Positions 17,743 to 63,987 of a DNA stretch of 64,000 nucleotides are shown piece after piece. Origin of the DNA: Tubulanus polymorphus (lineage: Eukaryota; Nemertea; Palaeonemertea; Tubulaniformes; Tubulanidae); contig NC_134035.1 in assembly GCF_964204645.1 (NCBI RefSeq), positions 9,796,501 through 9,860,500 on the forward strand, read 5' to 3'. Position 1 is the first letter of the stretch; every line of letters begins with the position of its first letter. The notes beneath the pieces were generated by a model. It ran no database searches and was not told where the DNA came from. It saw only the letters and a list, made by a program, of their open reading frames with translations. The position numbers and the translations under genes were made by a program.

Positions 17743-19341
17743 TCACACGTCCGTCTCGATGCTGACACTGTTCACCGGCGAGTAGTGCACACGCGTGCCC
17801 GAGCCCGGGTTGTTCGACTTCGAACTACTCGTGTGGTTCTGCTTCGTTCTGTCCATGATTATCATGCCCTCCTCCATCTCCATGATGTCCGACACGCTGC
17901 CCTGCGACGACTCGGAGCCGCGTTTGCCGCGCGGGAAGTTCGGACACGCCGTCTGCACGTGCACGTAGTTCTGCTTTTCCTCGTTATCCGTTTCGCGGTG
18001 GTAGAAATAGTTGAAATTGGACACAATGACCGGCACGGGCAACGCGATCGTCAACACGCCGGCTATCGCGCACAACGAGCCGACCAGTTTGCCCCAGACG
18101 CCGATCGGGCGCATGTCGCCGTAGCCGACGGTCGTCATCGTCACGACCGCCCACCAGAACGCGTCCGGTATACTCTTGAAGTGCGAGTTCTGCGAGTCGG
18201 CCTCGGCGAAATACACCGCGCTCGAAAACAGTATAACTCCGATGAACAGAAAGAAAATTAGTAATCCGAGTTCGCGCATGCTCGCCTTCAGAGTCTGACC
18301 CAAGATCTGTAATCCTTTCGAATGTCTCGACAATTTGAAAATTCTAAAAACGCGCACTAATCTTATAACCCTGAGTATAGCTAACGACATTCCAGGGTTG
18401 TTGCTCTTGCTGTCGTCGGCGATGACGGTGCCGAGCGTAATGAAATAGGGAATGATAGCAACGATGTCGATGAGATTCATTATATTTTTGAAGAAGCCTA
18501 ATTTTTCGGGACACGACGCGAATCGCACGAGCAACTCGAACGTGAACCACACGATGCACGCGGTCTCGATGACGAAGAACGGCTCGTTGAACTGCGGTAT
18601 GTCGTCCTCCTCGATCGACTCCTCGCTCTGGCCGATCGTCTCGGTCGAGTTGATCACGCGGTAGTGTTTGAATTCCGGTAACGTTTCTAAGCAGAATATA
18701 ACGATGGAGACTAAAATCACCAATACTGAGAATATAGCAATAATACGAGCGGGCATCGAGCTCTCCGGGTACTCGAACAGTAGCCAGACGCGCCGTTGAA
18801 ATTCGTTGTCGGGCAACTGTTTCTCGGGCTCTTTGATAAATCCTTCGTCCTCGCGGTACTTCTCGATCGCCTGGTCGCCGAGTTCGTAGAATTTTATCTC
18901 CTCGGAGAAGACGTCCAACGGCACGTTGACGGGTCGCCGTAGACGCCCGCCGCTCTGGTAGTAATACAGTATCGCGTCGAAGCTCGGCCGGTTGCGATCG
19001 AAGAAGTACTCGTTGCGCAACGGGTCGTAATATCGGTTGCGCTTCGTCGGGTCGCCGAGCAACGTCTCCGGGAACTGGTTCAGCGTTTTTACCTGCGTTT
19101 CGAAACGCAGCCCGCTGATGTTGATGACGACCCTCTCGCACGAGTCGTAGTCGCCGAACGCGGTGCCGCGGTCCACCTGCGCCAGCAACGTCTCCGGTTC
19201 ATCGCTCAATTTCGGAAACGACCTGGAATTTGGAAGAGTGGACGATTGGTTACTCCGATCCCGATTCATCATACGCGCCGTATTATAAGTAGGTGGAGGG
19301 CCACCGTTGCCCCCCTCTAGCCCAGCCATAGCCACTTCCAT
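17743..19341 (-). CDS. Kv1: Shaker-type (Kv1) voltage-gated K+ channel, core exon
   Basis: Pore-forming alpha subunit of a tetrameric plasma-membrane delayed-rectifier or A-type K+ channel. Starting at the ATG at 19341 (A at -3, G at +4) it gives 532 aa. T1 tetramerisation domain about 70-165; S1 199-219; an NST glycosylation site at 231 in the S1-S2 loop; S2 254-274; S3 286-305; S4 319-339 with the repeated Arg pattern [18 protein letters not shown]5 about 356-378; filter TVGYGD at 404-409; S6 with PVPV at 435-438; C-terminal PDZ ligand ETDV. The frame stays open upstream to 19536 but without an ATG. A 3' splice site (TTCCAG before position 19222) lies inside the frame just before SFPKLS, so residues 1-39 are replaced when the distal exon at 24439-24737 is used. 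Arg411 sits at the external TEA site (Shaker Thr449). Confidence 0.97.
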
Positions 19342-19541
19342 CTTTTGATTTTTAAACTGTGGACGAAGAACGGGGGTAAACCCCCACTTCTCAATAAAAT
19401 CTAATTTCGAAATTTTGATTACGTTTATAACTATACTAGGCAATAGGCGGCCGAACCCGTCGTTAATAGCAACAACAACGCTTCGAGCGGCCCTACGACG
19501 AAAACCATCGAAAGAAGAAACTCTCGACCCATCCACTTTCG

Positions 19542-20841
19542 AAATCTGTCATTCTATAATAATAACATCCAGTGCAATCGTGTTTAAACATCTAAACTCC
19601 GGCGGACGAATTTTAGTCCGTATCAATCGAGCGGACATCTTTTTTTTCTCGTGCTCGTTTCGGAAGAAGCCGTCGTCGCCGTCACACGCCGCCTCGCGAT
19701 GGTTCCTCGAATCAACCGGTTATATCCCGACGTTACGACAAATACACACACTACGTGTTTAAATACGTATTATAGTGATAGCTACGTGAACGAAATCGAA
19801 CCCCGTCGTCAATAATAATAAGTCGGTATCGTCGCTTATGATTGTAGATTAGGGGTGTGTGCAGAGCCGTTTTATAAGACAGTACAGAGTAGTGATCGTG
19901 ACAATTTTGGACGTAGAACGCGCTATATCGACGCAACGTGTGCCTAAATAAAACTAACGTATCTCTAGGCTACAGCTCTCTCTAGTAATGACAACATCAG
20001 TACTATACTAGATATAGTAGTAAAACACCACATCTAATCATAGATCGTAATAAATAACTCACATCCCTGTTGCTGCTGCTGCTGTTGCCGATGAAGCATC
20101 ATCGTTTATGATATTATTAGTATTAACGTGTCGACAATACGAACATATTAATAACTTGAAAGGCGCTTTCACCATCGAAACAGGTCATCCGATGACACTG
20201 ACAGCCATTCTAACTCGAGCTATCATCAAATCTTCATGGCTCTAGCTATAGCTGGAGTGTGTGTACTGTAATGTGTAGTGGTGCCAGTAGAGAAGTAGCG
20301 CGTTCATAGCCACCAACACCGCCAGAATAGCGGTGATCAGGCGCTAATCGGTCGCGATATAAACCGCGTATAAGATTCCCGGTTGCTTTCGAAATTCGCG
20401 ATAAACGATACCGACGATTATTAATTCGTTAAAAACAGGAAATCTATCGTAGATTTAACCGGTTGATTTCGAGGAAAAAACAGCGACGCAAATTGTGCGG
20501 CGCTTATTGGCGCGCAAGGATACAGTATACTGGCGGTATACTAGCTGAGCTTACCCGGCTTCATACAGTCCGTCAGCGCGCACCTTGCACGGAATGTACG
20601 GAGAGCCGTATGAATTAACGACGGACTGCGGTAAGGGGTGAGCAGTTAATTGGTAGTTCAGTTTATAGCGTGTGTTGGCTATGGCTTCTTAGTTTAGAGC
20701 TAGTTTTGCGTGGAAAATCGTCGAGAAACAACCGTTCGTGGTCGGACCGTGATCGCAAACCGACTCGTATCGAACCGTTGAAGTGATTACTGATTAAAAT
20801 CGTGCACTAACACCTCGTGAAGATACGGCTAGACAATAAAA
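19542..20841. promoter_or_regulatory. Head-to-head interval between Kv1 core exon and SNRNP70
   Basis: About 1.3 kb between the proximal Kv1 start (minus) and the SNRNP70 start (plus). It contains CpG-bearing, repeat-poor sequence, notably 20330-20620. It should hold the SNRNP70 promoter and 5' UTR and may serve the proximal Kv1 start as well. No TATA box could be assigned. Function is inferred from position only. Confidence 0.45.
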
Positions 20842-30500: not shown

Positions 30501-33500
30501 TATATGCGTTAGCCCGACGAGGCCTTATTGCGACGATGGCTGCGTGTTAGAAGCAATTAATAGCTGAAATATTTGCGAATAATAGCTTTTATCGGATTCC
30601 GTTGCGGATATATTTAATTGTATGGCCGCGCATGTCTATAATCCGCTGTATGTATCAGTTATCTGTTAATTTCCGTATACGTATATATATTGTTTTTTTT
30701 CTCTCGATATTTTCAGGGGACCCGGCGACCGATATAAATGCGACATCCGACCCGTACAAGACTCTTTTCATCGCGAGAATCGTAAGTCGATGGCCCGCGG
30801 GATTCTTATACAGGGTGGCCACTGACCTGAACAACTCGGGGAACCGGGGAAAATCTAGAAAAAGTCAGTGAAAACTCGGGGAATTTTACGAATCTTGATA
30901 AAAACCTGTAAAAATTGTGGAATTTGGATGATGTTTTTGACCACATGTTTCTTAACACTACATGGTTCATGAAAAAATGTATAGATTGTAACATTTTAAA
31001 CCGAGAAATTTCTCCGATTGGGGAAGTTTTTGTAAACACAAATCAGGGAAAGCTATGAAAGATTTGTAAATTGGTGGAGGGGGCTGCCAGCCTACATCGG
31101 ATGAAAATCAAATCTTTCTTCAATTATATGCACTGAGTTTGGTACCTGAAATCTTTGAAATGTCATATTCGGTCGTTCTTTTCGTGATGATTTCGATGAA
31201 CGCCTAATTCGTTCGTTAATCGTTATAAAAGCCTGGATTTTTCGCATGCTCGAGTCTCGATAATGATCTTGTTTGTAGTAAACCCCAGGCAGAGTAGATA
31301 CTCGATCGGAGAGCTAAAAAACGAAGATGTGATATGTTGAATAAAATCTGTTCAACTCGTCGTCACTTCTTCTCAGTTCTCCATCGTACATAACTTATAT
31401 TTTTAGAATCTAATTCGAATAGTTCAAAGTCAGTTTATTCGAGAGACGAGTTTCCGAGTTCGGATTCGAGTTTTTCATGTGATTTTAGTTGTACAGTCAA
31501 ACACCACTCCGATAAACCTCGCCTAACGCCCAATTATTTTCTGGCGACGGAATGTTTGTATTTGGTCTTGGAACAAGTAGAGATTAAAGCACCCTTTGTA
31601 TACCAGGGTGGCGCCACTGACCTGGAAAACTCAGGGAATTCGAATAATATTATTGACCACGTGTTTCTTATCTTGATCAGTACGTGATTCAATGAAAAAT
31701 GAACGAATTGTAAAATTTAAGACTTAGAAACTTAAAAATTTCTTTTGATACATCCAGGAATTTTGTGTAATAAAATCAGGGAAATCTCAATTGATGTGTA
31801 AATTGGCAGAAAGTGGCGGCACCCTGTATACGGCCAATCCTGTACTTCTTATACCGCCCAAATCCTAAATCACGGGTTGTCAGTTTATCGGATGAAAAAA
31901 ATGTACAATTTACATTCGATTTTTTTTTTTTTTTCAGAATTTTGACACGAGCGAATCGAAGCTTCGTCGAGAATTCGAAGTCTACGGCCCGATACGCATG
32001 GTAAGAGGGGAATATTCGGAGATAGATCGCCGACACGAGTCTGTGCGCGTTATTTATTACTGAACGGCGTTTTCATCGCTGAACTTAACATACTTTATTT
32101 CTACGCGGAATTATCTTTAGTTCCGCTTCACATATATATATATATATATATATATCAGGGTCGGTACAATTCCTTGATTCGTTAAAAACGTCTTCTGAAC
32201 AGAGAGTGCTTTTTAAGATTCTTGAAACTCCTTTAATTTGAGCAAAGTCTTCAAAGAAAACTACAGTAGACTAACGTCTAAATCGGTACAGTTGGGACCA
32301 GGATATTTTCTTTACCCAATTAGGGGGTTATGGAATTAGAAACCTAGTTCAGGTTATTCAACGGCTGAAAATTTGCTTACAAAACCAGTACCGAGATAAA
32401 CAGTACCGGTTTAGTTTGAGTCTACTGTAATCGGGATGTGAAAGCGATGCTGAAATTCGAAAAAACTTTTTCCTCGAAATTCCTTCTATCCGGGAATGAC
32501 TGATCTGTAGGGACGGTGTATATGTATGAATACGGTTAACGTAGGAAAGATTTAATACGTATTTGATTGGAAACCGCCTCTGTATCTTACAGCGAGGTTC
32601 TCTCAATGGCAGTAGTTGCAGCAGCGATAACGCCGCGAACCCTGGCTTTTTCACATACTCGTATTCAACGCGATGATCTTGTATGTAGTAAACTCCAGGC
32701 ACAGTAAACCACTTGATAAACCGCTAATAGTTGATACGCGCGCGGTCGGCGCTATCAATCGGCAAATCAAGAAACACTTCAATCATTATTAAACTCCTCC
32801 TTCAACTGATTTAAGTTTGTTTGATCTGGATTAATCGATATCGTGGTTTCATTTTTTTATGCATGTGTGCGCGTATGGTTTTTCCCTATAAGGCTATAAT
32901 GAAAATTGATACCTCGTTAAAGAAAATTACTATGACTACGAACCAGGTATTTTTAAAAGTTGAAAAAAACTTGCATTAACAAATCCAGGATAGAACTAAT
33001 GTTTACATCAGTATCCACTTTAGTCAGTGAACTGTTTTTAGGACAAGGATATATTTTTTCTGTTTTCTCCTGGTATATTACTATTACTTATAAATGTAAA
33101 CAGCCTTCACTTAGACTTGTAGTTATTAGTAACAATGTTTGAAACGTGGGTTTTCTTTTGATTATTCGTATTTTATAATCAGAAATGACAGAAATCACAT
33201 TGATTATGATTCTCATCATTTGATGAGATAAATTGGGAATGCTATAAATTAGTTAAAAACTATAGAATTTCTGATATTTAGCCATTTAAGCAATTGAACT
33301 TAGATCCTTTATTTACGGGAGGATATAGATTTGATAGTTGATTCTCTGTTCCCTGGACTGGGTGGTAGAATCCTGATACTTGTTAGAAGTCCGATTCGGT
33401 ATATTAGAGCTTTATATATTTAGTAGTACTGATAGATACAGTAGATACTCTGTATGCAATTTGATAAAACCCTGATACAGCAGATACTCTGCAGTTTGAT

Positions 33501-36500
33501 AAAACCGTGATACAGCAGATACTCTGCAGTTTGATAAAGCCCTGATACAGTAGATACTCTGTATGTTGGGTGATAAAACCCTGATACAGTAGATACTCTG
33601 TATGTGGGGTGATAAAGCCCTGATACAGTAGATACTCTGTATGCAGTTTGATAAAGCCCTGATACAGTAGATACTCTGTATGTTGGGTGATAAAACCCTG
33701 ATACAGAAGATACTCAGTATGCGGCGTGATAAAGCCCTGATACAGTAGATACTCTGTATGCAGTTTGATAAAGCCCTGATACAGTAGACACTCTGTATGC
33801 AGTTTGATAAAGCCCTGATACAGTAGATATTCTGTATGTGGGGTGATAAAGCCCTGATACAGTAGATACTCTGTATGTGTGGTGATAAAGCCCTGATACA
33901 GTAGATACTCTGTATGCAGTTTGATAAAGCCCTGATACAGTAGATACTCTGTATGTGTGGTGATAAAGCCCTGATACAGTAGATACTCTGTATGTGTGGT
34001 GATAAAGCCCTGATACAGTAGATACTCTGTATGCAGTTTGATAAAGCCCTGATACAGTAGATACTCTGTATGTGGGGTGATAAAGCCCTGATACAGTAGA
34101 CACTCTGTATGCAGTTTGATAAAGCCCTGATACAGTAGATACTCTGTATGTGGGGTGATAAAGCCCTGATACAGTAGACACTCTGTATGCAGTTTGATAA
34201 AGCCCTGATACAGTAGATACTCTGTATGTGGGGTGATAAAGCCCTGATACAGAAGATGCTTTGTATGCTGTGTAATAAAACCCTGAATACTGATACAGTA
34301 CTGGTAGAACCCTGATACAGTTGTTGTAGTGGGGGAGATAAAGTCACGAAAGACTATTGTAGTCCGATAGTGTAATTACTTGGCACATTGGGTGAAAGAA
34401 CCCTAATAGAGTACTCATAGAACCCTGATACTGTAATTACGGGGCGGCAGCTGAAATGTTTCGTGATTGCGATGTGTATCATGATCATTAAATTCTATTG
34501 CTGATACTGATCCCGGCGTCTCACGGCGGCTGCTGCTGCTGCTGCTGGTACATTCCGGTATCACACGTCATTAATTACAGATCCCACAGTTAATACGCAT
34601 ACATACATACATACATACATACAGGCAGGCACTGGCATCGACCGACAAACGAACGCAGCTATCATAATGTGTCTCTGTTGTACGCAGCCGATGAGATCGG
34701 TCTCTCGAGAAATCTTTTCATGAGCTTCTCGCGCATTCGTTGAATCATCAGCAGCTCTTCGGCCGACGACGACGACGACGATGCCGCATACAGGCGGTTA
34801 GATTTTTATATACGTTCGTTTTCTGCCACACGTCGTCGACGATGCATGCGTTACATACGCGGTTCTGACGGCTTCGGTTTTAAATTGAAATTAAGCATCC
34901 GAATGCAGCCGTCGTCGTAGATTAACCGATTCAAAGGCGAATCGAGAAAATGCGGCGCCGAAGTGAAAAGAGTTCATTTCGTAAACGCGACGATTTCAGC
35001 GATATTTTCTACGCGGCTGAAAACTTGAACGGTTTTGGTTATTTGATGGATTTTTTTTTTTTGGCTCCGTACAGTTCTTTACAGATCAGGGAAAATCATG
35101 GCACACTCAGGGTACCCGCTTTAATCTAGAAATCAGGGAGTTTTCATTTATTGAATATTCTGTTAATTGATCGGATTCCTAGGAGATCAAGCCAGGGAAA
35201 CAGCAAGTCGGATTCTGAATTTATATTTTCCTGTTCAAAAAATCATACAATTCAAGGGCCAGTTGCTGAAAATTTGGGTAAAGATAAATACCATAGGAAC
35301 AATGAACTTTTAATTGTCTCTTCACCAACTTTTCAGCAACTACAGCCCCTGAGTCTTTTCTTGAAAAGTCGGGGAACATTTTTCGTGTCTTTAGGGGCCT
35401 GTCTAAGAACCGTTTACGCAGATGTTAGTACAGAGCGAGCGGTGATGAATCCCGCCTCGGTGGCGGAGGCTGATCGACACCGGTCGTCGCCGCCGGTGAT
35501 GAAACCCGCCTCGGTGGTGGAGGCTGATCGACACCGGTCGTCGTCGCCGCCGCCGTCAAATTTCATTAACGCCGCGAGTGACTTAAAAGCGTTCAATTTA
35601 ACGAATGTTTACCCGCGATACGTGTTCATTCGCCGCGTCTGCTCCCGACGAGAAATATCGGATAATCGAATATTATCGATAAGTGCTCGGTGGTTTATTG
35701 ATTATTGATTTCGTGTATACGTACGCGCGCGTGAGAGGTAACCGTAGAGAATGTGTGTATGTGTGTGGGTCCGGTTATAATTGATAATGTGAATGTCGGG
35801 TGTGTACGCGTGTGTGGGCTTGAAGGCTTACTGTATTCATCGTGTTCTCCATATGCTGATAATGCATTCGTTCATGATTGATTTTTTTTAAATTTTTGAC
35901 CTTATTAGGTATGTCACTCGCAAACCTGATGTAACCTGCTCGTAACAAAACAGGATCCAGGTCCGCAGTTATGAGTTGAATGTGACTCGGGAGTTAACTC
36001 ATCGAAAATGAAATGATTTCAACTCTTGAGTTAACTCTCTTTTCTAACTCGTAATTGTGGAATTCGGCCCAGGGATTTTGATATCTATATGCTGGGATCT
36101 AAAAGGGACTGCTTTTATGCATTCACTTATTTAATTGGTCACTGGATAGTGGATATTTCTAAGGGGTGGTTGGTTTTCGGAGTAGGACGGATGTAAAAAT
36201 GACAAGGGGGGCTTGTGGAGAACAGTGTATGTACTTCGATGCCCCCCCCCCCCCCCCCCGCGCGCTCGCGTTTTCCAAGAATCGCAACACAATAATAATA
36301 AAAGTAATGTTTTCAACAGATGTGCAGCCGAGTCCAATTTCCAGTTATCCGCTGGTGTGCGTATTGTCAGAGAAATGGTTTATTCGTCTTTGTACCCGAT
36401 ACTGAAAAATTGATATATGGCGTCGAAATCCATTCTTTTTTTTTAATTATTATTAATTACCTACTTCACTTATTGGAAAATCCGAAGTCAAATACAAATT

Positions 36501-45746: not shown

Positions 45747-46896
45747 TTAGCAATTTACAGGTAGGAGATAAGACCCAATCCTGAACTGGAATAAGCTGGT
45801 CACTAAGTCGTCATCAAGCCGATTTATATAGTTTTCAAATTTGATATCCTTCTTATATTGTCTAAAATTAATGTATGGGTTATTATTTAGCCTAAAATCT
45901 GTCTCTTGCACATGCTGATCACGGAGTATACGGTGTATTTGTTTTGGAGAAGTCCTAGAGTTTACCATAGATTGTTGTGTCCATATATACGAAAGGCCAC
46001 AGTCATCAAAAGTCTTCTTAATAAATAACAGCCAGGGGCTCTTAAACCTATCATTCAGATATAAATTATAAGATATCTTATAGAGAATTGAACTAAGTTT
46101 ACTTTGTTTGCACTCAATCGTTTTGACCCAAAAATTAATCATTCTACGCTTTACGCTTAGGCCTATATACATAGGATTACGTCCTAACTCCGCTAATACT
46201 TGAAGGTTATGGGAATATTTTGTAACTTTCATGATAATTTTACAAAATAAACAGTGGAGGTTTTCTAATAAGTCAAGGTTTTCATATCCCCAGATTTCGC
46301 AACCGTACAACGCGATAGGAGCGACACACATGTCAAATAGTTTAAACATTACATCTACTGGAAGTTTCAAACGTCTGCCCTTTCGAATAATAGAATACAT
46401 AGCTTTCATAGCTTTATCATAGAGAATTTTTTTTGCTTTAGCGAAACTACCGTTCCAATTGAATTTCACTCCGAGATACACATAATCCTCAACTAACTCT
46501 AACTCCTGATTACCGAACATGAATTTCGAAATATGCTTAATCCTACTTTTACTTCGAGCGAAGACTAATATTTTAGTTTTATCAACATTCACCGTGAGGC
46601 CGTTGTCGGCGCAATATTCAAATAATGTATCTAAATGTGACTGGAGAGATTCCTCATCTTCGGCAAGAATGACTGTGTCATCCGCATAAAGGATAATGAA
46701 TAAGTTAAGTAAAGTCCCTAGTTCTGGGTCACAATTCACATTAAGCTTTTCAATATACGACAAAGTTGGTTTACCGCGCGTAGCAAAAAAGTCTTCAATA
46801 TCGTTTAAGAATAAGGAAAATAGGATAGGGGATAAATTTTCACCTTGTCTTAAACCTCTATCAGCAGCAAAATACTGTGATGTGTTTCCGTTAAAA
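45747..46896 (-). pseudogene. LINE reverse transcriptase fragment
   Basis: Continuous frame of about 383 codons from the 5' truncation point to TAA at 45747. It shows GLRQGENLSPILFSLFLNDI (palm motif), the catalytic box YADDTVILAE, then NGLTVNVDKTKILVF and YLGVKFNWNG, the order expected for a non-LTR RT, followed by a thumb/connection region. The frame has no ATG at a sensible start and is cut at both ends, so it cannot be functional. Host gene origin is ruled out by the RT motifs. Confidence 0.9.
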
Positions 46897-47110
46897 ATGC
46901 CCTTATAACCAACAAACTTTCAAAACTTCCATAATTTCATTCATCTGGATGATTCATTATTTAAAGTATTGATCCTCTGAAAAATAGATATGGTTCATCA
47001 GTTTTAATTATTACTCTACTGCCAGGGTCGGTTCCTCCACTTCCATTATAGCGTTCACCTGAACCGGGTGGCAGCACCGTACGGTATCCTAGCGGAATTT
47101 CTGTGAACTA
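46897..47110. repeat. Fifth, diverged unit of the 254-bp array
   Basis: Begins ATGCCCTTATAACCAACAAAC at the LINE's right junction and ends CTGTGAACTAATATGTATAAC. Confidence 0.85.
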
Positions 47111-55298: not shown

Positions 55299-58200
55299 TT
55301 AATGTCGGCTGCTGCGACTACTCGATGTATACTCGACTTCGCGTTCGCGCTCGCTGCGTTCGCGCTCGCTGTCTCTGTGACTGCGCGACCGCGATCGCTC
55401 CGGGTCGTGGTAGCGTTCGCGGTCTCTCTCGCGATCGCGACTTCGCTCGCGGTATTCCTCGCGTTCGCGGCTACGCGACGAACGACGCGATCGACTGCTG
55501 CGCGACTTCTCTCTCTCGCGGTCACGGTCGCGATCTCTTTCCCGATCGCGCGAACGAGAACGTCTTTCACGACTTGAACCGGCGCTGAAAAAGATATAAA
55601 CCACAAATCCAGTTTCAATCACAACTCATAGTCCTACATAGTTCTACTCATAGTGTGCAAAATTCAAGGTAAGTTTGACCAATGTTGAAATAATTCCATT
55701 TTCAATGTATGAAACCCTGAACCCAGTTCCACAGTTCCGAGTTAAGATTTGACTCGGAGTTAACTCATTGAAAATGAACTAATCATAACTCTAACTCACA
55801 ACTGTGGAACCGGGTCATAGAGTCTAATTTCAACCCAGTCTGGGCCTTGGGAGTTCAAATTGGATCCCTTTCAATTGGTTCACTCTTCTTTTCAGTCAAA
55901 TCTAGCTCACTCTCCTAACCCGTTAACGACAGATGCAGAGCGACGAATACTAATATCTCTTACCTGGATCCGTACGACTTGGCTTCGATACCGTGCAGCG
56001 TGTCCTGCAGGGAAGTGATCAGTATCTTACAGCGATCGTCGCTGGCAATCTTCGATTGTTTGATTAACGATATCGCCGTCACTAACGTCTCGATGGCGCT
56101 CGCGAAATCACCTATTATATAAAACAATTACGATATTTCGATTAACCCCGCATGAAGTGCCATCGTTTTTCAAAATTGTTTCCATGAAATATTGGGACAC
56201 GATCCTCAGTAATACATTCAAACTCAGTCCGCCTTTAAATGAAAATATAAAATCCCACACTAAGAAGGATCATCGGTCAGAAATGTTACCTAAAACTCCT
56301 TTTCAATTCGACATTTCAACTTTCCTTATTAATATTTCAGTTTAGGATGAAGTTAAATTAAAACGTTGAATAAACTACCAGCCCAGTGAAACATTTTTCA
56401 CTCTTTTTACCTATTTCTAGTTTCGAATCTTACAGGGTAACCACAAAACATCCACCTCTGAATTCCCTGGTTTTTCCCAGTGAAACTTTTTCGAAGTTCT
56501 GATGAATTGTTTTGAATTCCCTGCGAGAAATCAGTTGCCCGTTTTCCAGGTGGTCACCATATAACATTTTCACATTTCTGCTCGACGTAAATCAAGTCGG
56601 TATTTCGCTGGCCAAAACGAAGTAACAAACTTTCCGGGGAAGGGGGATTGCTCTATCCTACCTGCGCTAGCGTCCTGTACAGCCTTCGATATAGCACTGC
56701 TGGACACGGTCTTATTACGTTGTAACATATCTTCATATTCCGACTCGGATATTGACGGCGGAGGAGCGTCGTGTCGGCTGGAAATAATAACACGCAAATC
56801 ATTGTTATCGATTCGCAAAATCGTAGGAATGAAGATAGATATCGAATGTTGAAAATATGCAATTTTCAACAATTGGTAAAAACGCTGTGTCCGTGTTGTG
56901 ACGATACATAGAGAATCACATCCTGAAGACGATTATTAGGCTACTGTCAAAACATTGTACAAATAAATTATTGGCTTTATCTCATCTTCCTCATTAACTT
57001 GATGTTGGATTCTCTATCAGTCTATTTTCAATGTTCAATATCTAATCTTTTTGGATTACGCACAAAGATGAACTGATTCTTATCACTATGAGGGATTTGA
57101 AGTAACCATAACCAAGCTATACATGTTGATACTACTAAGCAAAAACTTGAATGCCTAACTCTCAGCACTAACGGAGGTTTAACTGTGTTTTCGACGTTCA
57201 ATGTCTAACTTTTTGGATTATGCACACACAGAGATGAACTCATTTCAATCACAACGAGGAGGATTTAAATAACCACGTCGATAATCAACAAAACCTTAAA
57301 ACCTAATGCATTGAATGTCTAATATATGTCTAATAATAGGTCCTTTTATATTCTAAAGAGATATTTAATAATAATCGAGCGCCAAAACTCAACATAACTC
57401 AAGAGATTAACTTAAAGAGATTTCATAATAAGCTGCATCAAGTCTACACAATGATTCTTTTTAGTTTGATATACATTTCAATGCGAGGAGAGGAAGGATA
57501 TTTCATCGTACCGCTAATGAGAGACGAGAGATTCATTGAAAATTACCTTTCAGAATGTTCATACCTATCTGGAGGTCGAGCGTATGGATCGTACGATACC
57601 TGCTGCGGAGGTGCACGATATGGATCTTGTGGCTGAAAGCGAAAACAACAAGAAATCTTATATTTCATACGAACTTTAAGAACCGACTTCTTTCCGTACT
57701 TGGAAATTCTGGAATATTGTTGACTACGTAATCGAATTAATGTCAATCTTTATCAAAACACTGATCCCAGACCACTGGGCCACTTTTATTTGACTTGCTT
57801 TTTCCCCATTTTATTTGACTTGCTTTCCACCCCCGACTATTCCCTGACATGCACCTTTCTTTCCCTGACTCGATCTGCTAAGAATCCAATCAATTAAATA
57901 AGTCAAATACATAAAATGCAGACGGAAACTGATTGAACTTGATTTTACACGCGATTTAGCAATCTTAACATATTTCCGCGTCTTATCCCTGATTTTCAGT
58001 TACAAAATTCCTACTTTTTAGAAGAAAAGAGAATTTTTTGAGTGACTCTTCTGTCACCCTGATGACTGTGCACCGTTTTTAAACTTACCGGTTGCGAGTT
58101 CGGTTGCGGTTGAGGGAAAAATGCAGGATTGACGTGAGGAGCAGGCGCTGATTGAGGAGGCATCGGTCCAGGCTGAGGTTGCGGGTGATGCTGAGGTGGA

Positions 58201-61200
58201 GGCATACCTACAAAACCAGAAACTTCACCATCATCACCGTTCGGGAAGGTATTTTCGCGAGATATATTTTCCCAGTATGAACTAACCTGGCGGCGGACCT
58301 CTATGTTGTGGAGGCATCTGCTGATGCGGCGGTCCCATTCCTGGGGGCGGCGGTCCTCCCGGATGTCCTGGTGGTCCGACTGGCATACCGGGTGGTGGGC
58401 CACCAGGATGCCCAGGTGGCGGGGGTCCTCCTGGATGTCCCATCGGCGGACCAGGAAGTGGTCCTGGATGTCCGTGCGGGGGTGGTCCTCCGGGGCCTGG
58501 ATACGGTCCTGGAATAGAAAACATTAGAATGCAATAATAATCTACAAACCTTTCACGTTGCTGTTAAATAGAATTTAGCGAATGGAAATTTCCTGCCCAT
58601 TTTTAATAAATTAATTTTCACTTTGATTTTCTCAAATCTTAATCATCAAATATTTGCATCCTAGGTAACTAGATCCTAAAATACAAACCAAATCTCAAAT
58701 GATGATTTCCTGATGAATTTTTCAAAAACATACCTGGTGGACCCTGCATCATACCAGGGCCTACGAGGTATAAACAAAACAATACTTCAGCATATGCAAA
58801 TTCATTTCAAGTCGATTGAAACATTATTTATCTCGACCTGTATATGATTTACCTGGTGGTCTATGGTCCCAGTCCGGTCGTGGCTGTGGTGGTCCATGCG
58901 GTGGCATTCTCTGTCCAGGAGGTCCACGCGGAGGCTACAAATACAATTCGTACAAAGAACTGATCAGATATTTTATATCTTTTCTGACTGTTACCCTTTC
59001 AGTGTGTCTATACCATATAATAAAACGGGATGGACTTCGCTAGTACAATGCGTTGTGGTGTATTGATGCATTTTGTCATTAAATTTTATTTCTAATCGAT
59101 GATGGCAGCATCTGTCAAACAAATATTAGAGACTAACGATAAACTGCACTGCGGTGTAGACACACTGTAGCAGTAGGTTCGTTATTCAATACACTGAGGT
59201 GGATCTTATCTAAATTTTGAATCATCTTTCTGCACATTCAGATATTAAGTCAACACTGAAGAGTGAAATGCCAAGCTTATTCGATTGCGAAGCAAATAAG
59301 ACATACTTACCATGCCAGGAGGTCCTGGTCTTGGCGGTCCTTGGTTTCCGGGATGACCAGGCGGCGGACCACCCGGGTGTCCAGGAGGGCCGCCAGGATG
59401 TCCCGGCGGTGGTCCACCGGGGTGGCCGGGAGGTGGTCCGCCCGGTCCTCCGGGCCGGTGTCCTGGGGGTCCGCCTGCAACGAACGAACACTCAAATATA
59501 AACATCAAACAAGAATTTCTTAAAATCTGATAAATTAACGAAATATACCTGGAGACGGACCTTGGCCTCTCATTTGGAAACCCTGCGGTGGGAACATTCC
59601 TCGTCCCCTTGGCGGCGGTCCTTGCGGTCCTGGTGGGCCTTGACGGTTATTTTGCTGTCCAGGAAATCGCCCTGAAAATCATTTCAAAACATTCTCAGTC
59701 ACATTTATATAACCACTTACAGTGCTCTCCATATTCTAGAATTTTAAAGGGGCTGCATTATGTGACACTGTGGCTGCTGACTTTCAATCCCCCCAAAAAA
59801 ATCTAAATTTTGTGTAATCATCTATTATTCGTAATAGCTCGATATATTTCAAAGCAATCATCAGCAATGATACAATATTAACATCCACTCTAGTAGGGGC
59901 AGCAGATATTTTATAAGGGATGGCTGATTTTCAGAGTGGTGGATGAAAAAAGGCAAAGGGGTGTGGCAACTTTTTTAAAACCTCTTATGGAGAACACTGT
60001 CTTCAACGAAATGCAAGAATCGTTGAGAAATAGGAGAGAATTGTTAATAAAATGTAGTGAACTCACATGGCTTACCGTTTTGTTCTTTCTTCGCCTGGTT
60101 GTCGAACTGAGCAAGTGTATTACGGTTACAGTGCGTTACGACTGGTGTTTGTCCGTGGATCTCTTTCTGCGGCAGACGTTCCATCACCGTGCGCATCGAC
60201 TGTTCAGAGTTCAACGCCAGAATTCCGAAACTACAAAACAAGGAGTAAACGGATTATGTACAGCGACCTTCACAATCATGGTGGCCACTTTCCGCCCATT
60301 TACAAATTCCCTGATTTTTCCATGTGATTACACAGAGAATTTTCTAGGTTACAATTCATTCATTTTTTTTTTTGATCTTAAAATAGGGATTGTCCCCATT
60401 ATTTATTTATCTGGTAAATTTTGTTTGATTTTTCGATTGAGTGTCCCTTACAGACCCACCACACCTGCCGGGAGCGAAACAGTACAATTCATTCATTAAC
60501 TATTGAGTTAAGTCACAATATGGTCAATAACATTATCCATATTCACTTTCCAGGTTTTAGGTCAAGTTTGACAAATTCCCAATTTTCCCTGATTTTCCAG
60601 ATCAGTGGCACCCTTATAATCATTAACGGGTTTGTTCTTGACAGATAGAGGGGAATCCAAAATTTCATGATATTTTCACGACCCTTTGCCAAAAATTCCC
60701 TAATTGAATCATCATATCAAGATATTCTCAGGGAGGAGCCATTTCTTTTCGGGAGGTTACTTGTGCAGTCCATCCCCAGCAATGACAAGAAGACACCAAA
60801 TATTAAAATTCCCTCGTCTTAAAGAAGACTCTAGATTTCTCTAATTTTCACAGCAGGAAAAAATTCTTAAAACCACAAGTAGTATCTAAATACTGAATTG
60901 AAGATACACACTCGGCAAATCTACTCTTAATTCATCTGAAAGCCTGCATTTCTCAGAACTCACCCCTTCGATTGACCGTTGGCTCTGTTCTCGTAGAACT
61001 TGATCTCGGTGATATCAGTAACTCCGACGCTGGCGCACGCATCGACCAAATCCTGATCGGTGGTCCACTGAAAATACAGGAACAATTCGTGACGAGAATA
61101 ACGAACAGAAAATGGAAAGTAACCAGATAAAAAGATTTCAAGTGCCAAAAAACACAGTACACCGGTGTATAAATACAAATAGTTAAAACATAAAGTCTAT

Positions 61201-63987
61201 GAAAGATTTCTATTTTTATCCAATGTAGGCTAATAAACTGACTTTGAACTATTCGAATTAGATTCAAAAAATATAAGTTATGTACGATGGAGAACTAAGA
61301 AGAAGTGACGACGAGTTGAACAGATTTTATTCAACGCATCACATCTTCGTTTTTTAGCTCTCCGTATCGAGTATCTACTCTGCCTGGGGTTTACTACAAA
61401 CAAGATCATAATCGAGACTCGAGCATGCGAAAAGTCCAGGCTTTTATAACGATTAACGAATGAATTAGGCGTTCATCGGAATCATCACGAAAAGAAGGAC
61501 AGAATCTGACATTTCAATGATTTCAGGTGCCAAGACAGAGTACACCGGTTTACGAGTACAAATAATTGAAACACAAAGTGTGTGAAAGATTTTGATTTTC
61601 AACCAATGCAGGTAATACAGATTTGCAATGCTTTATACAGCATAACTACTCATCTGTGCATTCACAAGGAAAGATTAAGAATTGAAAAGGACGGACTGAA
61701 TACAAGCAGACAGACAGACATACACACAGACAGAGATGTATATACAACAACAATGAATGCTTACCCAGGTCAAGTTACCAACTGACGTGGCAAATCTTCG
61801 GTCGTTCCCCCCAGAATTCTGCATCGAGAGAACAAACAATAACCATGAATATCGAAACAGAAAAAAAAAACAAAACAAAACCATCGAAGAGTAATTAAAT
61901 CAACGGCAAAATTATAACGAGTGAATTTACTGTAATTAAGAACACAGCAGAATTCTGGAAGGACTTGACACCGCAATGATTACATGCTTAAACCCTTAAC
62001 AGATTTCTCTGTGTCGCTTTGAACTTAGATTTTGATTAAAGCGGATTAAAGCAGGCGCCGTATAAGAGTTTATTGGACAGAATTATACATCTTAGTAATG
62101 ACCGTCTAATTCAATTGAAGAAATAATCCACAATTTATGAAGAAAAGCCGAAGAAAGTCACGTCCACGTTTTGACTCAAATACTAATCAGCATCCATTTT
62201 GAAATTGGCTTGTAGCATTTGAGTCATAATATCAATCTTCTATCAGTTTAACTTCGTAATCGAGGGTTCTTTCATCAACTACTGAAAAACCACGTCTTGA
62301 AAATTGACACAATTTTTCGTTCCAGGAGCCAGTTGCTCAAAAGTTGGTTAAGAGTTAACCAGTAACAGCAGAAAGTTGACTTAGGGGTGACAATCAAAAG
62401 TACAATTGGATTACTACATGGTATTTATCCACCAGGTTATCTTCAACCAACTTTTTATCAACTGACCCGGCTGGTATGTATGTTATGAAACAGCCGCTAA
62501 GCATTGTCAATCATTTGGATAAAATGTCTCTACTAGGTGTGACAATGATTACTTACCCATGATAGATTGCCCACGTATGTAGCGTGTCGTCTGGTGGCCC
62601 ATGGTTGCCCGGCAGCATTCGCAGCAGCCGTAGCCGTCTGCTTAGGGCCGGTCGGTTCCGACTGAAAATGAAAGACACAAAACATCTAGCATTGTATTTT
62701 ACAATATCATTTATTTACTCAACACTATTTCTTATTGTATTTTAAGATTATTTTGAATTTTTTGTTTCTAATTCATATTTCATAACGTATTAAGAGTTTG
62801 ATAACCAAAGTTTTGGCCAACTTGTAAGTTTTCTTCTAACATCACCAGTCGTCCTAAATTATTTCTTAAATATTATTCATAAAATTTTATGAAATAATTT
62901 TAGTTATCTTATCTAAATGTCGTTGTCATCAAGTTTAGGGTTTCATTTCATTGACAACTGTTAAGCTATGTATTAGTAACTATTGAAAGAACATTTGTGG
63001 GCCGGGAAAGAATCAATTACAGTTATCGTAGGGTAAGAAATATCAAAAGTAGCAATTAAAGGGTTTTCAGAGATCAGGGAAAGCAACAATCCCCGATTTA
63101 GCAGCAGGGTAAAATAATCCAGACCTCCCTTATTTTCAACATCACTATAAAGAACCATGTAATTCGTAGGTCGGGATAGTTTTTACGATTTAATAAGCTT
63201 TTGCTCGGGGCAACAGGTAAAAATACTAACATTATGATGAGCTGGAGGACCATCAGCAGCGGGTCGGTCACCACCTCCGGTCGCTGGAGCAGTTATGACA
63301 TCATCGTATAAATCACCTGCGTCGTTATTAAATTCATTTTCCTGAAGAAATAGTTCAAATAATCACGTGAAACAGAGCGCGAATATAATGAATACAGCAT
63401 TTGCTATGTCCATCGACATTGTATTTGAGTTAGATTTGGCAAATTTGTTCTCTGAAAGTGCGTTGGCATTTTGTGAGTGGTGGCGTTAAAAAGCATGGCA
63501 TTATCACAGACTTCGACTGTATACTCAAAGCTATTTGATTTTCTTTTTTTTCATTGAAGCCTGATTGCAGCGCCCTCAAATGACAAAACAACGAACTAAA
63601 ATGTGTTCTTTCAGTAAGTAAGTACCAGGATTCATTATCCCCTAGAAGGCTCTAGCAGCGGCATTGTTTAAAATAACCAACCCTCAACTCACGATATAAT
63701 TGCAAGCAACAAACGCAAAAACAACAACTTGCATTTTTTGTTTTAACAAAGAACAATGAATGCCCAGCTCCCGTAGAAACCACCCGGCAAACTCGCACCC
63801 TTCTAAATCACAATATACTAAAGAGAACTGACCGTTATCAACCACTCAAAATAACCCTCCAGATTCTATAATTTGTGCTCTATAAAGAGCTGCTAGAAAG
63901 ATATCGATTCTAAACTGAATAAGACCTATTTACCTGATTAAAATCTTCGATATTTTCATAAATATCGATGTCCACGCCATCCGCCAT
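55299..63987 (-). CDS. CPSF6: Cleavage and polyadenylation specificity factor 6 (CFIm68), 15 coding exons
   Basis: Large subunit of cleavage factor Im, which with CFIm25 binds UGUA upstream of poly(A) sites. Exons in order: 63934-63987, 63231-63341, 62557-62661, 60964-61067, 60076-60230, 59549-59671, 59311-59474, 58853-58934, 58734-58760, 58287-58508, 58089-58207, 57565-57632, 56662-56777, 55964-56111, 55299-55584. All are GT-AG and phases close, giving 627 aa. It starts [18 protein letters not shown]; acidic N-terminus; RRM about 82-165 with RNP2 YVGNLS at 84-89, conserved WWTTDQDL and [11 protein letters not shown]; Pro/Gly-rich region about 177-444 with repeated GHPGGPPP and conserved [10 protein letters not shown]; conserved SSSAISKAV...[13 protein letters not shown] and [12 protein letters not shown]-terminal RS/RE domain 533-627. 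No FG-containing capsid-type peptide like that of vertebrate CPSF6 is seen. The promoter lies beyond the window (the ATG is 13 nt from its edge). Confidence 0.97.
55716..55818. repeat. Fold-back element, CAGTTCCGAGTT type
   Basis: ACCCAGTTCCACAGTTCCGA at the left, inverse CTCACAACTGTGGAACCGGG at the right. CPSF6 intron 14. Confidence 0.75.
56433..56562. repeat. Family B element, short
   Basis: ACAGGGTAACCACAAAACAT at the left, TTTTCCAGGTGGTCACCAT at the right. CPSF6 intron 13. Confidence 0.65.
59720..59999. repeat. MITE family H, copy 2
   Basis: Ends CAGTGCTCTCCAT and ATGGAGAACACTG. Body colinear with 11520-11824. Fills most of CPSF6 intron 5 between exons 6 and 5. Confidence 0.85.
60278..60613. 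repeat. Family B element with insertion
   Basis: CATGGTGGCCACTTTCCGCC at the left and CCAGATCAGTGGCACCCTT at the right. About 100 bp of unrelated sequence (60367-60480) interrupts it. CPSF6 intron 4. Confidence 0.7.
61139..61612. repeat. Element G, minus orientation, flanked by ~80-bp direct repeats
   Basis: 61228-61612 is the reverse complement of 31085-31445. Its last 80 bp (CCAAGACAGAGTACACCGGT...CCAATGCAGG) are repeated with changes just before it at 61139-61228, as if a tandem dimer had lost most of one copy. Lies in CPSF6 intron 3, between exons 3b and 4. Confidence 0.8.
61765..61818 (-). CDS. CPSF6: CPSF6 alternative exon 3b (duplicate RNP2 exon)
   Basis: A 54-nt exon lies between exons 3 and 4 with acceptor TCGATGCAG and donor GTAAGC, phase 0 on both sides. 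It encodes [18 protein letters not shown], clearly parallel to the end of exon 3 ([12 protein letters not shown]). Either exon can join exon 4, which begins with Trp. Using 3b instead of 3 gives 610 aa. The RNP2 aromatic residue (Tyr84) becomes Ser in 3b. Exons of this size that duplicate a domain edge usually behave as mutually exclusive pairs, though inclusion of both would also keep frame. Confidence 0.8.
62322..62472. repeat. Fold-back element (CCAGTTGCT type)
   Basis: GGAGCCAGTTGCTCAAAAGT at the left, inverse TTTTTATCAACTGACCCGGC at the right. Lies 85 bp downstream of CPSF6 exon 3 in transcript sense. Confidence 0.7.

Follow-up and report, generated by a model that had tools for sequence, protein, structure and literature searches.

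CFIm is a main regulator of alternative polyadenylation. Its large subunit CPSF6 (CFIm68) has the domain order RRM, proline-rich region and RS/RE/RD tail, and the accessible part of PMC3287031 describes the RRM as not binding RNA and yet being required for NUDT21 binding. Tandem exons that vary a domain of this type have been described in vertebrate U2AF1, in which exons Ab and 3 place their variants in RNP2 (PMC5224494, accessible part); the same text names the docking-site/selector systems of mutually exclusive exons in insects. Here we describe a CPSF6 gene that probably gives two RRM forms from one locus through an alternative small exon, 3b. Such a duplicated exon is unusual for CPSF6 but follows a known pattern.

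A search of the literature by titles and abstract openings, which covered few subscription papers, found no duplicated or mutually exclusive exon pair in CPSF6, and the accessible part of PMC6821156 names the gene once, among qPCR primers. A sequence-only reading of this DNA had held that no vertebrate equivalent of the pair was known. That view stands for CPSF6 within the literature searched but is too broad for the kind of exon pair, since vertebrate U2AF1 has duplicated exons varying RNP2 (PMC5224494, accessible part). As far as our searches reach, CPSF6 is thus new to a class that U2AF1 already represents.

The window, by which we mean the whole 64,000-nucleotide stretch of Tubulanus polymorphus DNA analysed, contains on its minus strand a gene of 15 exons plus 3b, running from an ATG at 63987 to a stop codon at 55299 in a model read by eye without transcripts (Table 1). 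The predicted protein has 633 aa with exon 3 and 616 aa with 3b, and its RRM, Gly/Pro-rich region and RS/RE/RD tail follow one another as in CPSF6. Spliced with exons 4 and 5, either exon matched human CPSF6 (3q2s_C) over the RRM (E 6.9e-35 with exon 3, 3.6e-34 with 3b), and the top three PDB matches of both forms were 3q2s and 3p5t (CPSF6) and 3n9u (CPSF7), with E from 1.6e-25 to 6.9e-35. The RRM_1 profile scored 35.4 bits with exon 3, 34.4 bits with 3b and 25.4 bits when both exons were skipped. By these similarities, the locus is one encoding a CPSF6/CFIm68-type CFIm large subunit, with its closest RRMs in CPSF6 and CPSF7.

Table 1 Exons of the CPSF6 gene model and arms of the predicted helix at exon 3b (positions in the window).
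Feature	Position	Strand	Description
CPSF6 exon 1	63934..63987	(-)	54 nt; ATG start; ends in phase 0
CPSF6 exon 2	63231..63341	(-)	111 nt; phase 0 at both ends
CPSF6 exon 3	62557..62661	(-)	35 codons; N-terminal linker and RRM beta-1 with RNP2 Tyr
CPSF6 exon 3b	61765..61818	(-)	18 codons; shorter linker and RRM beta-1, Ser at the RNP2 aromatic position
CPSF6 exon 4 (WTTDQDL...NGQSKG)	60964..61067	(-)	common to the exon 3 and 3b forms
CPSF6 exon 5	60076..60230	(-)	remainder of RRM
CPSF6 exons 6-15	55299..59671	(-)	Gly/Pro-rich region and RS/RE/RD-rich tail, to stop codon; read by eye without transcripts
Predicted helix, upstream arm	61947..61963	(-)	17 bp; 15 Watson-Crick and 2 G-U pairs
Predicted helix, downstream arm	61806..61822	(-)	covers acceptor AG plus the opening 13 nt of 3b

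The sequence-only reading had placed exons 3 and 3b as two phase-0 exons that each join exon 4 in frame, and their coordinates, borders and frame are all seen in the DNA. Both exons are preceded by AG and followed by GT (ttttcag/TCG...TGG/gtaagt for exon 3, gatgcag/AAT...TGG/gtaagc for 3b); they are adjacent, homologous, in the same phase and flanked by the same partner exons, and so form a tandem homologous pair. Among 535 GT sites of the gene, five pair with U1 at least as well as the 3b donor (-9.2 kcal/mol), which is itself one of them; the five are the donors of exons 3, 3b, 4, 13 and 14. On the acceptor side, 3b has 14 pyrimidines in 20 positions, within the range of 10-17 at the 14 other acceptors of the gene. 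This pyrimidine-rich tract with its AG argues against 3b being an alternative first exon, transcribed from a promoter in the 3-3b intron and translated from an ATG just upstream of the acceptor (61822..61824, minus strand), which would yield a CPSF6 lacking exons 1-3. That ATG is in frame with 3b, but the bases before it do not fit the Kozak context, the rule by which we judged it, and we regard such a start as very improbable.

The two exons differ in length and in one residue of particular interest, both as previously claimed. The linker of 3b is 17 residues shorter (35 versus 18 codons), and when the exons are aligned with human CPSF6 (KRIALYIGNLTW) and CPSF7 (RRAAVYVGSFSW), 3b has Ser where the other three have the RNP2 Tyr, at what we take to be the second position of that motif. 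In the RNP1 segment KGFGIL, Phe is the sole aromatic, so that the likely stacking residues number two, the RNP2 Tyr among them; this Tyr and the Phe of KGF presumably occupy the usual RNP positions for aromatics. Both forms share the remainder of the RRM (exons 4 and 5). The description of the beta-1 ends as near-identical holds at the level of the protein tail, where 9 of 12 residues agree, but does not extend to the tail DNA, which differs at 16 of 36 sites, or to the upstream parts of the exons, which have no significant likeness (local score 13, matched in 165 of 1,000 shuffles). Homology is confined to the last 12 codons.

This short match stands well above what chance yields in the window. 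On each strand we took every 12-codon stretch that has no stop and directly precedes a GT, and scored it against three beta-1 references, those of exon 3, of human CPSF6 and of human CPSF7; exons 3 and 3b ranked first and second against each. With exon 3 as the reference, it scored 69 against itself and 3b scored 48, while the next best stretch reached 21; a simulation of 30 strands of 64 kb, limited to this reference, gave 27 at most. The pair scored 45 and 43 against human CPSF6 (next 19) and 45 and 33 against human CPSF7 (next 18), and neither strand of the window held a third beta-1 stretch with GT scoring near exons 3 and 3b.

The strongest evidence for the age of 3b and for its retention as protein comes from its codons, 12 of them in one genome. 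Of the 12 shared tail codons, 11 differ and only the final TGG is unchanged, so that the two exons use different codons for 8 of the 9 residues in common. In simulations with 3b unconstrained and exon 3 constrained, 2 of 10,000 runs retained 9 or more identical residues and none of 10,000 had 8 or more synonymously differing codons; under stronger constraint on exon 3 the counts were 3 and 2 of 10,000, respectively. When runs were stopped at 15 differences, an unconstrained 3b reached the two thresholds in 1 and 0 of 5,000 runs, and a half-relaxed 3b (w 0.5) in 33 and 12 of 5,000. With w 0.05 on both copies, the pattern was reached in 411 (residues) and 409 (codons) of 10,000 runs, a better yet imperfect fit. 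Because shared residues are encoded differently and this is rare under drift, 3b looks like an old exon under protein-level selection, and both copies look to have been selected as protein over these 12 codons.

These simulations also bear on whether 3b might be a decaying or regulatory decoy, kept in order to hold spliceosomes or tune the level of CPSF6, with its protein irrelevant. The half-relaxed runs speak only mildly against weak constraint, the 3b acceptor may be hidden by a predicted helix (see below), and transcripts with both exons or neither would also be in frame, all of which a decoy would accommodate. The different codons for 8 of 9 conserved residues, a pattern that unconstrained drift rarely yields, suggest instead that selection is on amino acids rather than on RNA letters, and we give the decoy little credence. 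That 3b exists, is in frame and is under selection is, as a joint claim, very probable.

The frame does not decide how the two exons are combined. Whether a transcript has only exon 3, only 3b, both or neither, it keeps one open frame with a single terminal stop, so nonsense-mediated decay cannot enforce the choice, and since the both-in and both-out forms are in frame, exclusive use is not forced. The intron between the exons measures 738 nt, which makes choice by crowding improbable and is long enough for splicing from exon 3 to 3b. It would therefore suit a cassette, sometimes added after exon 3 without an early stop, that places a second beta-1 copy between exons 3 and 4. Serial beta-1 strands would, however, set an extra strand and linker beside WTTD, and that 3b has conserved its entire RNP2 end would make best sense if 3b, as the sole beta-1, leads into exon 4; we consider a cassette distinctly unlikely. 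Exons 3 and 3b are most likely alternatives, 3b giving a CFIm68 RRM without the RNP2 Tyr, and we judge it likely that 3b is used in place of exon 3.

A possible switch for this choice is a 17-bp helix predicted over the 3b acceptor (-28 kcal/mol), which none of 300 shuffles of the intron equalled. Of 28 splice-site-to-intron duplex tests, the one that paired the 3b acceptor with the intron upstream of it was alone in being matched by 0 of 100 shuffles, and the support for a switch is post hoc, from one test in 28. Across four folding contexts, pair probabilities were 0.70-1.00 for 16 of the 17 pairs, the outermost pair falling to 0.48 in one context and 0.60 in another. The AGs of exons 4 and 6 were predicted to be as paired as that of 3b. 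For exon 3, the probability of an unpaired AG was 0.14-0.50 over four contexts, versus 0.00-0.33 for 3b, whose shortest context lacks the upstream arm of the helix. These values weaken the idea that exon 3 is favoured through concealment of the 3b acceptor alone: in most contexts the exon 3 acceptor is largely paired too, so exon 3 does not clearly emerge from the fold as the default choice. We also set aside a candidate conserved intronic element after both donors (8 of 10 bases at intron positions 6-15), since exons 1 and 7 match at 9 of 10 bases, among 105 donor pairs.

The genome searched comprises 268 Mb in 77 contigs. With the window protein and the human CPSF7 RRM as queries, one CFIm large-subunit locus was detected, the CPSF6 of the window, and one NUDIX_2 (CFIm25-type) locus was also detected. 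The 241-nt region around 3b occurs once in the genome. We therefore rejected an origin of 3b in a second gene or a stray copy, in searches whose reach is limited: that with the window protein (E 0.001) did not list exon 3 of the CPSF6 locus itself, and that with the human CPSF7 RRM matched exon 5 of the true locus only at E 0.64 and neither beta-1 exon, so a diverged CFIm large-subunit paralogue could be missed. Searches of prokaryote and virus contig collections yielded no relatives of the exon pair, as expected for such collections.

Several repeats lie in or near the gene. The 3b-4 intron contains a 302-nt element (61232-61533) of which an inverted copy, 95% identical, lies 30 kb from it (31139-31439); the genome has at least two copies. 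Flanking the element are two direct repeats, each about 105 nt long and 80% like the other, at 61131-61235 and 61516-61617. Considered as splicing selectors, these flanking repeats were rejected: being direct and bordering an element with a second copy, they look like repeat debris. Another helix of 17 bp, perfect when G-U pairs are allowed (-28.9 kcal/mol), lies at 55720-55816 in intron 14 of CPSF6. Elsewhere in the window, a long open frame at 17743-19548 (minus strand) with BTB_2 and Ion_trans domains looks like a single-exon voltage-gated potassium channel, an open frame at 45747-46919 (minus strand) with an RVT_1 reverse transcriptase domain is probably a retroelement remnant, and long repetitive open frames at 236-1651 and 33404-34375, in more than one frame, look like tandem repeats.

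In the explanation that we prefer, exon 3b arose long ago as a true tandem copy of the 3' part of exon 3, and some transcripts include it in place of exon 3; taken as a whole, mechanism included, we favour this explanation with modest confidence. Exons 3 and 3b would be spliced as alternatives, and the helix predicted over the 3b acceptor might conceivably restrain 3b use. The 3b protein would still fold as an RRM and bind CFIm25, because exons 4-5 are common to both forms, while its RNA-stacking face would be weaker, because the lost Tyr is one of two aromatics at RNP positions. CFIm carrying the 3b form could then have a reduced grip on RNA or reduced looping, and could shift some poly(A) site choices; this last effect of 3b use we put forward tentatively, as somewhat doubtful. 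Exon 3b would in this way supply a second CFIm large-subunit flavour in an animal with one such locus found.

These steps depend on what the RRM contacts. The earlier proposal that the CFIm68 RRM contacts both CFIm25 and RNA is borne out in its first half, as the RRM is described as required for CFIm25 binding, while its second half is contested: papers disagree on RNA contact, and the accessible part of PMC3287031 describes an RRM without RNA binding. The 3b form would be a natural test of this disagreement. If 3b is used, the animal could switch the RNA-recognition face of CFIm by splicing alone, in parallel to U2AF1, and would carry a natural mutant in which two roles of the CFIm68 RRM, CFIm25 binding and RNA contact, come apart.

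The human paralogues CPSF6 and CPSF7 (CFIm68 and CFIm59; 3q2s, 3p5t and 3n9u) likewise provide two flavours of the CFIm large subunit, and their beta-1 ends differ (GNLTW in CPSF6, GSFSW in CPSF7) over roughly the segment that exons 3 and 3b would switch. The human flavours are, however, two genes that both retain the RNP2 Tyr, whereas one locus was found here and 3b has Ser. Exon duplication might do here what gene duplication did in vertebrates, with exon 3 giving an RNA-gripping form, 3b an RNP2-blunted form that binds CFIm25, and the helix at the 3b acceptor setting their ratio and hence global poly(A) choice, a scenario that we consider unlikely as a whole. Within one gene, CFIm72 adds residues after the RRM and is not known to swap beta-1. 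As a splice form of human CFIm68 it resembles the proposed 3b form in arising by alternative splicing of the same gene (PMC5546720, accessible part). The insect docking/selector exons are similar in that intronic base pairing could govern the choice, but at CPSF6 we found only the local helix predicted at the 3b acceptor, and no docking sequence common to exons 3 and 3b stood out in the 28 splice-site-to-intron tests.

The closest known case is U2AF1, compared here through the accessible part of PMC5224494. Exons Ab and 3 of U2AF1, like exons 3 and 3b of CPSF6, form a tandem homologous pair, belong to a gene for a core RNA-processing factor and vary the RNP2 of an RRM-type domain, and both genes would make two protein flavours from one locus, if the alternative use that we infer for CPSF6 holds. 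The U2AF1 exons are equal in length (67 nt), while those of CPSF6 measure 105 and 54 nt, and inclusion of both or neither leads to NMD in U2AF1 (PMC5224494), whereas all combinations stay in frame in CPSF6 and NMD would not police them. Exon Ab has an upstream stem-loop that tunes how far it is included (PMC5224494), comparable to the helix predicted at 3b; the former lies 61-85 nt upstream, off the acceptor, and the latter covers it. Since deletion of long inverted repeats had no effect in U2AF1 reporters (PMC5224494), that gene offers precedent both for and against a helix switch at 3b. Unlike the variants of U2AF1, another gene, exon 3b of CPSF6 replaces the RNP2 aromatic itself.
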